This document shows positions 9,766 through 14,964 of a stretch of 64,000 nt of DNA, in pieces. Position numbers and translations under genes: made by a program. Where the stretch lies: the NCBI GenBank assembly GCA_030655215.1, contig JAURVZ010000048.1, positions 1-64,000 on the forward strand, in the 5' to 3' direction. Within the stretch, counting starts at the first letter, position 1. Each line of letters begins with the position of its first letter. The stretch comes from Pseudolabrys sp. Its GTDB lineage: Bacteria > Pseudomonadota > Alphaproteobacteria > Rhizobiales > Xanthobacteraceae. Under the pieces are notes generated by a model, which searched no databases, was not told the origin of the DNA, and was given only the letters and a program-made list of their open reading frames with translations.

Positions 9766-10724
9766 GCAAGACGAAGCCGCTCTACAACCGCCTTGCCTTG
9801 ATCGGCGTCGGCCTGATCGGCTCGTCGATTGCGCGCGCGGCGCGGGCGCAAGGCGCGGTCGGCTCGATCGTCGCCACGGCGCGCTCGGAGACGACGCGCA
9901 AGCGCGTTGCTGAACTCGGCCTCGCCGATCAGGTGGTCGAGACAGCGGCCGCGGCTGTCGAAGGCGCTGACCTCGTTATCGTCTGCATTCCGGTCGGCGC
10001 CTGTGGCCCGGTGGCCGCGGAGATTGGCCCGCATCTGGCGCCCGGCGCGACCGTGTCCGATGTCGGCTCGGTCAAAGGATCTGTGGTGCGCGATATGGCG
10101 CCGCATCTGCCGAAGACCATTCATTTCGTTCCGGCGCATCCGGTGGCCGGCACCGAATATTCCGGTCCCGATGCCGGCTTCGCCGAACTGTTCGTCAATC
10201 GCTGGTGCATTCTGACGCCGCCGGAAGGCCAGGACCCCGCCGCTGTCGAGAAGCTCGCGGCGTTCTGGCGCTTGATCGGCGCCAATGTCGAGACCATGGC
10301 GCCCGACCACCACGACCTTGTGCTGGCCGTCACCAGTCATTTGCCGCATCTGATCGCCTACACCATCGTCGGCACCGCCGATGAACTGGAAGCGGTGACG
10401 CGCTCGGAAGTGCTGAAATTCTCCGCCGGCGGTTTCCGCGACTTCACCCGCATCGCCGCCTCCGACCCGACCATGTGGCGCGACGTTTTCCTGCACAACA
10501 AGGATGCGGTGCTGGAAATGCTCGGGCGTTTTAATGAAGACGTCTCGGCGCTGACCAAGGCGATCCGCAAGGGCGACGGCGACGCATTGTTCGATCACTT
10601 CACCCGCACCCGCGCCATTCGCAAAGGCATCGTGCAGATCGGCCAGGATTCACCGGCGCCGGATTTCGGCCGCGCGCATGAAGACCTGCCGCACGAGCCG
10701 CTGCCCAAGCCTTACGAAAGCTAA
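9762..10724 (+). CDS. tyrC: Prephenate/arogenate dehydrogenase
   Basis: 320 residues beginning at GTG 9762. The N-terminal Rossmann motif [17 protein letters not shown] binds NAD(P); [15 protein letters not shown] holds the substrate-site His, and the helical dimer domain follows ([10 protein letters not shown]). It oxidatively decarboxylates prephenate or arogenate in tyrosine synthesis. It lacks a fused ACT or chorismate mutase domain. Last gene of the chorismate mutase-hisC-tyrC operon. Its TAA (10722-10724) overlaps the stop of the convergent lysE gene. Confidence 0.92.
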
Positions 10725-11332
10725 CGCTCCGCCAGGGCCAGCCTCGCGCCCAGCAACACGAAAGCGCCGGCGAACGTGCGGCGCATCCAGGTGACGACGC
10801 GCGGGCGCGTCGTCACGTGATCGCGGATCGATGCGGCAAACAGGCCGTAGCCGACGAACACAACGAACGTCATCAGCATGAAGACGGCGCTGAGCTCGAG
10901 CATCAGCGTCACCGCCTGCGGCTCGTCGGCATTCACGAACAGCGGCAGGAACGCCAGAAAGAAAATCGACAGCTTCGGATTGAGAATGTTGAGCAGGATG
11001 CCTTTGCCGGCGATCTGCGCCACCGAGCGGCCATCGAGCTGCTTCTCGACCTTGATCGGTGAGTGATCGCGCCACGTCACCCACGCCATGTAAAGCAGAT
11101 AAGCGCAGCCGGCATATTTGAACATCTCGAAGGCCAGTGCGCTGGTGTGCAGCAGCGCCGCAAGGCCCATGATCGCCGCGGCGATGTGCGGCAGGATGCC
11201 GAGCGTGCAGCCGAAGGCGGCAACGACGCTGGCGCGGCCGCCGCGCGAGAGGCCGATCGCCAACGTGTAGAGCACGCCGGTGCCGGGCGAGACGACGACG
11301 ATGAATGAGGTGATGAGGAATTCGAGGGTCAT
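10721..11332 (-). CDS. LysE/RhtB family amino acid exporter
   Basis: A 203-residue membrane protein with about six hydrophobic helices and the family signature SPGTGVLYTLAIGLSRG near the N terminus, plus LNPKLSIFFLAFLPLF. LysE/RhtB proteins export amino acids or homoserine lactones across the inner membrane; the substrate is not predictable. It is a single gene, convergent with tyrC with stop codons overlapping in CTAA. Confidence 0.9.
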   Translation of the reverse strand: MTLEFLITSFIVVVSPGTGVLYTLAIGLSRGGRASVVAAFGCTLGILPHIAAAIMGLAALLHTSALAFEMFKYAGCAYLLYMAWVTWRDHSPIKVEKQLDGRSVAQIAGKGILLNILNPKLSIFFLAFLPLFVNADEPQAVTLMLELSAVFMLMTFVVFVGYGLFAASIRDHVTTRPRVVTWMRRTFAGAFVLLGARLALAER

Positions 11333-11375: not shown

Positions 11376-12353
11376 CTACTCGGCGGCCTGCATGGTGCTT
11401 TGCAGCTTGTCCTGCGCGTTGACCAGGCGCTGCATCATCTTGAGATCGCGCTCGGTCAGCTCAAGGCAGGAATCGGCCCAGATCGCGACGATGCGGTCGA
11501 GCTCGCCCAACGTCACCGGATTGACCTCGCGGCCGGCGCGATAGACGCCACGGGCACCGGCATGACGGCGCTTGTGCTTTTCCATATATTCGCGCACGGC
11601 CTCGATACCCTGCCCGGGCTCGGCGACAATATGAACAAGGCCGGCGTCGACCATTTCCTCGGCGGTATAGGTACGGCCCGACAGCATCATCTCCTCGGCA
11701 AAGGCCGCACCGATGCGCCGCGACAGGAGCGTGTAGGCGCCCATGCCGGGGAACAGACCGAACAGGCTTTCCGGGAAACCGAACTTCGCATTGCGCTCGG
11801 CAATGATCACATTGAACGACAGCAGCGTCTCGAAGCCGCCACCGAAGGCATCGCCCTGTGCAAGGCCGATGGTGATCATGGGCAGACCGAGCGTGTTGAT
11901 GTTCTTGTGCAGCACGCGCACGCAGGATTCGCCGTAGGCGATCAAAGCATGCCGGTTGCGCTCGCGGATCTTGGCGAGGAAGTAGTCGAGATCGCCGCCG
12001 AGGTTGAACACGCCGGGCGTGCGCGAGCCGACGATGAGATAGCGCAGATCATTCGGGCGATCGGCAAACATCGCAGTAACGCCGCGCTGGCCGGCGTGCA
12101 TGTCGTCAAGCAGTCCAAGATTGTAACTCGGACGCCCGCGCGGCCGCATGAAGGTCCACAGCGCGCCGGTGGTCTCGTCCCACGACACTTCCAATTGCTC
12201 GAGGTCGAACAGTTGCTTTGCGTCGTTGTCGCGCTTCAACTCGAATTGTTTTTGCTCGAACGCCTGCTCCGGCGGCGGTGACGCGGCGAATGCCAGCGTC
12301 TTCACGCCCGTCCGAGCGGCGGAGGCTAGGCCCGTCTGAGTTGCAACACCCAT
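11376..12353 (-). CDS. RpfF-like crotonase (putative DSF-family signal synthase)
   Basis: 325 residues from ATG 12353 (an in-frame GTG lies two codons upstream). The crotonase core resembles RpfF of Xanthomonas closely: VFNLGGDLDYF, CVRVLHKNI, QGDAFGGGFETLLSFNVIIAE, FGFPESLFGLFPGMGAYT, and a C-terminal IWADSCLELTERDLKMM. RpfF converts acyl-ACP to cis-2-unsaturated fatty acid signals, using two glutamates. Both are present here as E175 (GGGFE) and E195 (FPES), with the same 20-residue spacing as E141/E161 of Xanthomonas RpfF. The N-terminal 60 residues are an extension of unknown role. It is divergent from a PAS-GGDEF-EAL gene, as RpfF is linked to RpfR elsewhere. Signal synthesis is inferred, not shown; an enoyl-CoA hydratase-type role remains possible. 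Confidence 0.8.
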   Translation of the reverse strand: MGVATQTGLASAARTGVKTLAFAASPPPEQAFEQKQFELKRDNDAKQLFDLEQLEVSWDETTGALWTFMRPRGRPSYNLGLLDDMHAGQRGVTAMFADRPNDLRYLIVGSRTPGVFNLGGDLDYFLAKIRERNRHALIAYGESCVRVLHKNINTLGLPMITIGLAQGDAFGGGFETLLSFNVIIAERNAKFGFPESLFGLFPGMGAYTLLSRRIGAAFAEEMMLSGRTYTAEEMVDAGLVHIVAEPGQGIEAVREYMEKHKRRHAGARGVYRAGREVNPVTLGELDRIVAIWADSCLELTERDLKMMQRLVNAQDKLQSTMQAAE

Positions 12354-12365
12354 GAACACAACCCG

Positions 12366-12397
12366 TTAAGTATTCCTTAACCCTAACAGACCGTTAA
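12366..12397 (+). promoter_or_regulatory. Two tandem CtrA-like boxes
   Basis: TTAAGTATTCCTTAAC (12366-12381) fits the CtrA consensus TTAA-N7-TTAAC exactly. CTAACAGACCGTTAAC (12383-12398) fits with one mismatch in the first half-site. Their starts are 17 bp apart. They lie 12-45 nt upstream of the RpfF-like start codon and about 240-270 nt upstream of the PAS-GGDEF-EAL gene, so either direction could be controlled. Binding is inferred. Confidence 0.6.
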
Positions 12398-12636
12398 CAC
12401 CCTTACAATAATACTTTTGCCGTTAACCATATTGTCTTCGTGCAGCACTCGCGCAAATGCGGAAGAAAGCCGCGTGCTCGCGTATTTGTGAATGCTTTTT
12501 ATAGTGCAGAAAAATTCTGCGAATTGCGGCGTCTTTGTTGAGCGGTCGTTCACCACAACCCGCGATTAGCCTGTTCGTTTGCGGGTTGTTGAACTTCCGC
12601 CGGTACGCTGGTGGCGAAGGTAACCCGCGACGTCAC

Positions 12637-14964
12637 ATGATTTTCAAGAAGCTGATCAAGACACGGAAGGAAGACGCCGAGCTCTCGTCAGAGATTCGCG
12701 CCTCTCTAATCGAGTCGCTTTTTGCACCGATCTCGTCGCTGATCGTCGGCGCCGTCGGCTGCGCCATCGTCGGCGCGCTGGTCGCATGGCGCGTCCATGA
12801 CGACGTCATCATGGCAACGTCGATTGCCATCTTCTCCATCGGCATGCTGCGCGTCGCCTCGGCGCTGCTGTACAAGAAATACGAGAAGACCGGCGACCGC
12901 GCGGCGACGCGGATCTGGGAACGCGTTTACGAATATGGCGCCTGGGGCTTCTCTGCGCTGCTCGGCTTGTTGTGCTGGCTGACGATCAGCCAGAGCTCGG
13001 ACGTTTCGCTGCAGCTTTCAGTGACGGCGACATCGATCGGCTATGCCGCGGCGATCTCCAGCCGCAATGCCGGCCGCCCCTTCATCGCCATTGGCCAGCT
13101 GGCGCTTTGCACGGTGCCGATGGCCATCGCGCTGCTGATGTATCCCGACTGGATTCACAAGACGCTCGGCGTCGTCGCCCTGCTGTTCATCTACGGCATG
13201 ACCGACATTTCGCTGGCGATCCGCGACGTCATCATCCAGGCGCTGACCATGACGCGCAAGGAAGCCGCTTTGGCCGCCCGCTTCGAACAGCAAGCCAGCC
13301 GCTTCGACATTGCGCTGAACAACATGTCGCACGGCCTGTGCATGCTTGACGAACGCGACCGCCTGCAGGTCTGGAACAACCGCTTCACCGAAATGCTGCA
13401 TTTGCAGAATGCGCCGATCCGCGTCGGCATGCACATGTCACAGCTGGTGCGGCACAGTATCCGCGCCGGCAATCACAAGTCGCGCAACGTCAAACAGGTG
13501 TTCGACGACTTTACCGCCGCCTTGCAACACGACGCATTCGACCAGTTTCAGATTTCGCCGGATGGCGAACGCACCCTCTCCGTCTCGCGCCGCATGATGT
13601 CCGGCGGCGGCTCGGTCGTCATTCTAGAGGATGTCACCGAACGAAAGCGCGCGCAGGAGCGCATTGAGCGGCTGGCGCGCTTTGACGAACTCACCGGGCT
13701 GGCAAACCGGGCGCAATTCCGCGAGCGCATCAATGTGATGCTGGCGGCGGTGCACAAACTGGAAAATCATATCGCCATTCACTTGATCGATCTCGACCGC
13801 TTCAAGTCGATCAATGACACGCTCGGTCATCCGATTGGCGACAAGCTGCTCAAGCAGGTCGCCAACCGTCTTTCGACGCAGATCAAGCGCGGCGACATGA
13901 TCACCCGCTTCGGCGGCGATGAATTCGTCGTCCTGCAGACCGGCACGCCGAACCATGACGATGCCAAGGCGCTGGCGCTGCGCCTCGCCGCGACGCTGAA
14001 CGATCCGTTCGAAATCGACGGACATCGCATCGATATCGGCGCCTCCATTGGTGTCGCCATGGCGCCGAAGGATGGCACCGACGCCGACGAACTATTGAAG
14101 AAGGCCGACATGGCCTTGTACGCCGCCAAGAAGCTCGGCGGCGGCGACCATCATTTCTTTGCGTCCGAAATGGAAGATGCCGCGCAGGACCGCCGCGCGC
14201 TCGAACTCGATTTGCGCGAGGCCATTGCCGCGCAGCAGTTCACGCTGAACTTCCAGCCGCTGGTCGACCTGCACAGCGGCAAGGTGACGACATGCGAAGC
14301 GCTGGTGCGCTGGACGCATCCGGTGCGCGGCGCCGTGTCGCCAGCCGAATTCATCCCCGTTGCCGAAGAAACCGGCCTGATTGTCGCGCTCGGCGAATGG
14401 GTTTTGAACCGCGCCTGCGTCGAGGCGGCGACATGGCCGAACGACGTGAAGGTCGCGGTCAACCTGTCACCGGTGCAATTCAGGGACCGCAGCCTGGCGC
14501 TGCAAGTCGTGACAGCGCTGGCCAAGTCAGGATTGCCGGCGCCTCGGCTTGAACTCGAGGTCACCGAGCGCTTGCTGCTCGAGGACAGCGATGACACGCT
14601 GGAGACAATGGAGCAGCTCAAGAAGCTCGGCGTCAGCCTCTCGCTCGACGATTTCGGCACTGGCTATTCGTCGCTCAATTACTTGCGCAAATTCCCGTTC
14701 CACAAGATCAAGATCGACCAGTCCTTCATTCGCGACCGCGGCAATGAGCGCGAGGCGAAGGCGATCATCAGCGCCATCGCCAGTCTTGGCGCCGGTCTCG
14801 ACAAGATCGTGGTGGCAGAAGGCATCGAGACCGAAGAACAGCGCAAGCTGGTCATCGCCCAAGGCGTGCATGAAGGTCAGGGCTATTTGTTCGGCCGGCC
14901 GATGAACGCCGAAGCTATTCGCACGCGGCTCGCGGCGCCGGTCAACGCGCAGCTGGTCGCTTAG
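12637..14964 (+). CDS. Membrane PAS-GGDEF-EAL c-di-GMP enzyme
   Basis: 775 residues from ATG 12637. About six membrane helices (residues 30-190) are followed by a PAS domain (about 225-340; FDIALNNMSHGLCMLDE), a GGDEF domain (about 350-510) and an EAL domain (about 525-765). The active-site GGDEF is intact at 426-430, so diguanylate cyclase activity is possible. The inhibitory site reads KxxD (417-420) instead of RxxD, suggesting weak product inhibition. The EAL motif (554-556) and DDFGTGYSSL loop are intact, so phosphodiesterase activity is also expected. The PAS-GGDEF-EAL order matches RpfR, the DSF receptor, but a membrane domain stands where RpfR has its RpfF-binding domain. An inverted repeat in the leader (GTTCA/CAACCCGC 12548-12563 with GCGGGTTG/TGAAC 12581-12594) may affect expression. 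The stop overlaps that of DUF2125. Confidence 0.93.
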   Translation: MIFKKLIKTRKEDAELSSEIRASLIESLFAPISSLIVGAVGCAIVGALVAWRVHDDVIMATSIAIFSIGMLRVASALLYKKYEKTGDRAATRIWERVYEYGAWGFSALLGLLCWLTISQSSDVSLQLSVTATSIGYAAAISSRNAGRPFIAIGQLALCTVPMAIALLMYPDWIHKTLGVVALLFIYGMTDISLAIRDVIIQALTMTRKEAALAARFEQQASRFDIALNNMSHGLCMLDERDRLQVWNNRFTEMLHLQNAPIRVGMHMSQLVRHSIRAGNHKSRNVKQVFDDFTAALQHDAFDQFQISPDGERTLSVSRRMMSGGGSVVILEDVTERKRAQERIERLARFDELTGLANRAQFRERINVMLAAVHKLENHIAIHLIDLDRFKSINDTLGHPIGDKLLKQVANRLSTQIKRGDMITRFGGDEFVVLQTGTPNHDDAKALALRLAATLNDPFEIDGHRIDIGASIGVAMAPKDGTDADELLKKADMALYAAKKLGGGDHHFFASEMEDAAQDRRALELDLREAIAAQQFTLNFQPLVDLHSGKVTTCEALVRWTHPVRGAVSPAEFIPVAEETGLIVALGEWVLNRACVEAATWPNDVKVAVNLSPVQFRDRSLALQVVTALAKSGLPAPRLELEVTERLLLEDSDDTLETMEQLKKLGVSLSLDDFGTGYSSLNYLRKFPFHKIKIDQSFIRDRGNEREAKAIISAIASLGAGLDKIVVAEGIETEEQRKLVIAQGVHEGQGYLFGRPMNAEAIRTRLAAPVNAQLVA

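Follow-up and report, generated by a model that had tools for sequence, protein, structure and literature searches.

A 2015 review (PMC4504480) divides the perception of fatty-acid signals of the diffusible signal factor (DSF) type into two core pathways, that of RpfC/RpfG and that of RpfR. For RpfR, activation of the phosphodiesterase by the Burkholderia signal BDSF is reported (PMC4504480, PMC6361424), and a 2022 review describes the protein as widespread in beta- and gammaproteobacteria (PMC8846402). RpfC-RpfG has been reported in alphaproteobacteria from KEGG (PMC8895600); hence, the RpfC side of the distribution given below is partly known already. Herein, we describe a locus of Pseudolabrys sp. 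in which an RpfF-family crotonase faces a membrane PAS-GGDEF-EAL protein. It lies in the 64,000-nucleotide stretch analyzed (the window; assembly GCA_030655215.1, contig JAURVZ010000048.1, positions 1-64,000 of the forward strand; all positions are window coordinates). The two genes probably constitute a DSF-type circuit, in which a single membrane enzyme of cyclic di-GMP (c-di-GMP) turnover stands in for RpfC and its response regulator. Comparisons at the sequence level show the family identity of the crotonase, the inheritance of the pair as a unit, and the exclusion of RpfC. The pair was first noted in a prediction made from the letters of the window; its observation of an RpfF-like synthase facing a PAS-GGDEF-EAL protein is confirmed, including coordinates, strands, and divergent orientation, and its interpretation is partly supported. 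The Hyphomicrobiales-like character that it ascribed to the genome agrees with the names on record for same-genus contigs, Pseudolabrys sp. and Rhizobiales bacterium. The elements of the locus are the following.

11376-12353, minus strand: RpfF-family crotonase, putative DSF-type fatty-acid signal synthase (325 amino acids; assigned by E175, E195, FPGMGAY, NF006452, four RpfF structures, and the tree)
12354-12636, no strand: divergent intergenic region (283 bp), presumed to hold the promoters of both crotonase and partner
12637-14964, plus strand: membrane PAS-GGDEF-EAL protein, proposed receptor and output partner of the crotonase (775 amino acids; assigned by Pfam and kept beside the crotonase)

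The frame of the crotonase is intact, running from the ATG at 12353 to the stop at 11376, and diverges from the partner gene. The frame of the partner opens at TTG 12535; since its homologues begin at ATG 12637, 102 bp further in, the start is set there, which gives the gap of 283 bp. A shared operator was sought as exact 8-, 9-, or 10-mers; none of these recurs in as many as 12 of the genus's 22 divergent regions.

Family membership of the crotonase

By sequence, the crotonase is a member of the RpfF family. Among solved structures, the four best matches are RpfF without exception (171.3, 167.0, 158.0, and 157.6 bits), and the next crotonase follows at 59.1 bits. The Burkholderia-type RpfF of locus L244 (611-613 bits to 5fus and 6dgn) reaches 170 bits with Xanthomonas RpfF; hence, the window crotonase is about as far from each known RpfF type as those are from each other. 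The curated cut-off of 177 of the NCBIfam model NF006452 (PRK08788) is passed with 353.7 bits. Scores of this model are bimodal in the order sample of 297 genomes: 39 RpfF carriers, the window's own genome included, lie at 284-388 bits, and the next match lies at 94.4 bits.

The original prediction had proposed a tree with RpfF and enoyl-CoA hydratases. In such a tree, built without 11 near-copies and without L033-L035 (on the contigs of L171-L173), the crotonase is placed within the RpfF clade, the 81 family rows being split from the eight other crotonases of the window's genome with an SH-aLRT support of 100. RpfR-linked, RpfC-linked, and window-type crotonases share the RpfF side, with the deeper branches among the family rows mostly unresolved. 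A fold search with the crotonase model, which is of low confidence (predicted local distance difference test (pLDDT) of 58.1, from five sequences), returns RpfF chains at ranks 1-12 (E 8.5e-16 to 9.0e-14), and hydratases and DspI only after them, from 3.4e-9.

The residues named in the prediction, E175, E195, and the FPGMGAY segment, are present, and both glutamates are invariant in 25 aligned RpfF-family rows. Their spacing by 20 residues, which had been taken as a mark of RpfF, has little weight: three of the eight hydratases of the same genome have the same pair, which is hence not diagnostic of RpfF. The PGMG motif is found in 91 of 92 RpfF-family sequences and in none of these eight other crotonases. 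The enzyme most likely synthesizes a cis-2-unsaturated fatty acid from 3-hydroxyacyl-acyl carrier protein (ACP).

The membrane partner and the distribution of RpfC

A profile of the RpfC-type input domain (model A6) was run on 60 RpfF carriers at E<=1e-8. The 37 carriers that also have the membrane partner (the window's genome, 21 of the genus, and 15 others) show no such domain; the other 23 carriers have one each, except for G152, which has none. Four of the five carriers that lack an adjacent partner are among those with the domain. A6 holds rows from nine of the 22 genomes that it found and is circular there, the 37 negatives being unaffected. The same split occurs within single families (f14 and f29). 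The motif R.D.EH is present in 22 of 28 RpfC-like kinase N termini, and all five essential DSF-sensing residues in nine; these are Arg15, Asp17, Ser18, Glu19, and Gln22, as reported for Xanthomonas RpfC (PMC5391125). As judged from these sequences, the split supports the view that RpfF takes part in DSF circuits in this order, the membrane protein occupying the place of RpfC. Within this order, the partner stands in for RpfC plus response regulator and not for RpfR. The exclusion of partner and RpfC renders the question of the receptor directly testable.

A membrane PAS-GGDEF-EAL gene adjoins the crotonase in 15 of the 39 carriers of the order (the copy of G259 is cut by a contig end). Four arrangements occur: divergent in one (the window), convergent in seven, codirectional with the partner first in five, and codirectional with the crotonase first in two, one of the latter (G221) with a 4-bp overlap. 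In G216, the two genes lie on two contigs, each pointing to the contig end. An RpfC-like hybrid kinase adjoins the crotonase in 18 carriers; the four with checked domains show the order HisKA-HATPase-REC-Hpt, with a REC-PAS-GGDEF-EAL or REC-kinase protein alongside. No partner lies within 8 kb in five. Outside the order, an RpfC-like kinase is present in 10 of 12 further loci of the class. The phylum search matched 63 genomes, from which 19 loci were fetched: 10 have a kinase with the input domain, one a kinase without a detected one, five an RpfR-type protein (for L245, L246, L260, and L261 by similarity and grouping with L244 and not by database name), one a MerR-PAS-GGDEF-EAL protein, one (L259) a relative of the window's partner, and one has none.

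Several loci of this survey show features of their own. At L255:7411-10295 (G777, same phylum), an RpfF-family gene is directly followed by the MerR-PAS-GGDEF-EAL gene on the same strand, possibly a further partner type, seen in one genome. At L259:4919-8427 (G839, same order), a crotonase with 166 bits against the cut-off of 177 lies on the same strand as, and downstream of, a relative of the window's partner. Many alphaproteobacterial loci, such as L164, L231, L234, and L236-L240, hold a second kinase-bearing protein beside the RpfC-like kinase in place of a c-di-GMP enzyme; in L164, the one checked, it reads REC-PAS-HisKA-HATPase. At L235 and L256 (G475 and G642), a window-clade RpfF lies inside an apparent polysaccharide gene cluster, as judged from starts of open reading frames, with no adjacent sensor. 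Of the 62 genomes of the phylum sample above the RpfF-family cut-off, the majority belong to the single family f209, whose genomes are small and several of whose copies are marked with one internal stop.

The partner itself is built from the following parts.

12730-13248, plus strand: six long helices predicted at residues 32-204, which include the conserved RNAxRP motif (model mean pLDDT 56.5; no Pfam family)
13315-13659, plus strand: PAS domain (PAS_7, PF12860; 91.7 bits)
13678-14139, plus strand: GGDEF domain, GGDEF intact, I-site KxxD (155.3 bits)
14209-14901, plus strand: EAL domain with EALVRW, DDFGTGYSSL, VNLS, and IKID (234.2 bits)

The Pfam matches are PAS_7, GGDEF, and EAL, in the order predicted; there is no kinase domain in the protein and no family in its first ~225 residues. 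For this N-terminal module, which is probably a membrane module, the low-confidence model (from a four-sequence alignment) contains six long helices, which are consistent with six membrane passes. R143, N144, A145, R147, and P148 of the RNAxRP motif are invariant in 22 of 22 aligned rows. A fold search with the low-confidence model of the module gives no PDB match at E<=0.001. The GGDEF and EALVRW motifs had rightly been called intact, and the GGDEF and EAL motifs are intact in 32 of 33 RpfF-linked partners; the partner of L162 has lost the GGDEF motif and carries ECL in place of EAL. The degenerate I-site of the prediction holds for the window's partner and is not a family trait, since 19 of the 33 RpfF-linked homologues have RxxD.

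The prediction had further described the protein as having the domain order of RpfR, with six membrane helices in place of the RpfF-binding domain. The helices recur in the model; the protein is, however, not an RpfR with a swapped domain but belongs to a separate GGDEF-EAL family. Its GGDEF-EAL part groups with other proteins that share its N-terminal module, apart from RpfR and from RpfC-linked regulators (partner trees were built without L135 and L172, which are cut by contig ends, and the frameshifted L178). An FI domain, the RpfF-binding domain of RpfR, was not found in the partner: with a shallow profile, hhalign gave less than 1% probability when five RpfR-type proteins were compared in their N-terminal region. 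The PAS domains of partner and RpfR align over 39 columns that end before the BDSF pocket residues of the crystal structure (Ser169, Asn172, Tyr183, Arg187, and Asn202), and no RpfR PAS is among the seven PDB matches of the partner's PAS domain at E<=1. On the FI domain and the GGDEF-EAL branch, the partner was rejected as an RpfR variant, in line with the membrane version having been proposed as distinct, and its N-terminal module was rejected as an RpfC-type input for lack of similarity.

The best relatives of the N-terminal module (at least 249 bits) occur in RpfF carriers only (15 of 15), the next match having 181.7 bits. Model A1 contains proteins chosen for their place beside the crotonase, so that most of the 15 high scorers match by construction; the argument, being partly circular, therefore rests on no RpfF-less genome exceeding 181.7 bits and on the co-occurrence in the genus. 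RpfF-linked partners form three branches, namely that of the window with a support of 100 (27 rows, G216 among them), five of f29, and L163/L166 with L259, and 15 proteins from RpfF-less genomes fall between them. From these trees, either one old pairing would have undergone many losses, or proteins of one family would have been recruited more than once. As a test of a single origin of the pairing, forcing the crotonases with a membrane partner into one clade (30 rows versus 59) gives a borderline p of 0.047 in the approximately unbiased (AU) test.

Inheritance of the pair

Conservation of the pair in related genomes, which had also been put forward as a check, is evident within the genus. The crotonase is present in 21 of 35 other same-genus genomes (E<=1e-30), the N-terminal module of the partner (at least 251 bits) is present in the same 21, and the other 14 have neither gene. 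Four of these non-carriers, in a count taken together with G001, are less than 90% complete, so that a few absences may be assembly gaps. In all 21 carriers, the two genes are divergent neighbors, the partner being frameshifted in G017. The presence of the pair was mapped on a tree built from two flanking proteins in 35 genomes, the window's among them (G022 lacked both proteins). It requires six changes, five of which are forced by well-supported branches. Because the presence profiles of both genes are identical, every gain or loss involves both.

Prephenate dehydrogenase and DUF2125 enclose the pair and a LysE gene in the window and in G011, G013, and G035; the same arrangement is seen across a contig break in G012. 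The sister genomes G002, G023, and G030 show the empty site, with the aligned coding ends of the flanking genes 11, 5, and 11 bp apart (stop codons included). The flanking genes are also 11 bp apart in carriers such as G024 and G031, in which the pair is located elsewhere. A second neighborhood is common to eight of nine examined loci of carriers with the pair elsewhere, giving at least two chromosomal neighborhoods in the genus. Hence, the pair moves, and is gained or lost, as a unit. Chance adjacency is untenable because of the co-occurrence, the co-loss, and the recurrence in four arrangements, as judged by pattern. With adjacency at several sites and joint gain and loss, inherited gene order was rejected likewise.

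The LysE gene is the remaining feature of the site.

10721-11332, minus strand: LysE-type translocator at the window's site (LysE, PF01810), outside the conserved unit

It accompanies the pair in the window's genome, G011, G012, G013, and G035 and has no match in seven carrier loci (L321-L326 and L328). In the second neighborhood, a long-chain acyl-CoA ligase lies ~1-7 kb from the crotonase in six of the nine loci (L168, L169, L322, L324, L325, and L328; NF004674 with 1003 bits in L168). This recalls xanthomonads, in which the acyl-CoA ligase RpfB adjoins rpfF.

The proposed circuit and its relation to known systems

The working of the pair, namely what the product is, that the partner senses it directly, and in which direction c-di-GMP responds, is proposed by analogy with RpfR. 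The crotonase would convert 3-hydroxyacyl-ACP to a free cis-2-unsaturated fatty acid, which would reach the inner membrane and there shift the helical membrane module or the PAS module of the partner. As with BDSF on RpfR, the phosphodiesterase activity of EAL would rise, and c-di-GMP would fall as the signal builds up. A wider generalization is put forward tentatively, in which Alphaproteobacteria may hold a third core DSF pathway, RpfC and regulator having been replaced, possibly repeatedly, by a membrane-embedded c-di-GMP enzyme that would sense the fatty acid via the RNAxRP six-helix module.

Several observations weigh against a DSF-type circuit of this kind. The crotonase misses the cut-off of 550 of the xanthomonad RpfF equivalog NF053515 with 197 bits; the cut-off is, however, no general criterion for DSF synthases, since the Burkholderia-type RpfF of L244 fails it too (184 bits), the xanthomonad-type L243 passing with 580. 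The partner lacks the FI domain, and its PAS domain is only generically RpfR-like (hhalign 72% over 39 columns). Between its N-terminal module and the RpfC input, no relation is detectable. The module also occurs in proteins of genomes without RpfF, so that the module family as a whole cannot be DSF-specific. In G475 and G642 (family f64), finally, a crotonase of the window's clade has no adjacent membrane partner, a distant relative being located elsewhere (133 and 123 bits).

The product might instead stay within the cell: the thioesterase side of an RpfF-like enzyme would free fatty acids, and the membrane protein would report the membrane or fatty-acid state to c-di-GMP, with no cell-to-cell signal. 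RpfF is described as freeing fatty acids from a range of acyl-ACPs (PMC4504480, PMC6361424), the sensor candidate is predicted to reside in or at the membrane, and related proteins occur without RpfF. We consider this unlikely, as the swap of the known DSF sensor RpfC for the partner within the same RpfF family fits a signal better. It appears quite improbable that a DSF-type signal is made but read elsewhere, with the neighbor exerting contact control of the synthase or answering another cue. Contact has precedents in the FI domain of RpfR, which is described as binding and inhibiting RpfF (PMC6361424), and in a structure that, by its entry title, combines RpfF with the RpfC REC domain; moreover, the partner offers no residue to which fatty-acid binding could be assigned. 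The partner has, however, no detected FI-like domain, and neither the window's genome, which is 80% complete, nor the 36 other partner carriers show an RpfC-type input domain. An ordinary enoyl-CoA hydratase with an accidental or inherited neighbor is barely conceivable and already contradicted: the shared glutamate pair of the three hydratases would fit it, but the RpfF-family rows are split from all eight with full support, and the pair is adjacent at no fewer than two sites in the genus and in four arrangements in the order.

The two-gene DSF-type circuit is preferred over these alternatives. If, beyond that, the third core pathway is true, the six-helix RNAxRP module would represent a hitherto undescribed type of DSF receptor. 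In titles and abstract starts of the literature, no membrane PAS-GGDEF-EAL protein was found as a partner of RpfF, a search that covered no preprints and few subscription papers. Hyphomicrobiales is an order rich in soil and plant-associated bacteria. A membrane one-protein pathway therein would extend DSF signaling to organisms in which it is little studied.

Among the described systems, DspI is likewise a crotonase proposed to make a DSF-family signal (PMC4504480); its chains, however, rank 17 and 27 in the fold search, among ordinary hydratases and behind all 12 RpfF chains. The RpfF/RpfR (BDSF) system of Burkholderia and Cronobacter shares with the window an RpfF-family synthase beside a PAS-GGDEF-EAL protein and a c-di-GMP output. 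RpfR is, however, described as soluble with an N-terminal FI domain (PMC6361424, PMC4504480), whereas the window's partner has a helical membrane module, no FI domain, and a GGDEF-EAL part on another branch. With RpfF/RpfC/RpfG of Xanthomonas and its relatives in Alphaproteobacteria, the pair has in common that the synthase belongs to the same RpfF clade, that the proposed sensor is a membrane protein with several helices, and that the output is c-di-GMP. RpfC is a hybrid kinase that acts via a response regulator, whereas the window's protein would combine sensor and output in one chain without kinase domains; the membrane parts of both show no detectable relation, and none of the 37 tested partner carriers has the RpfC-type input. 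The three systems would hence form a natural swap experiment, with one synthase family, three different partners, and one second messenger.

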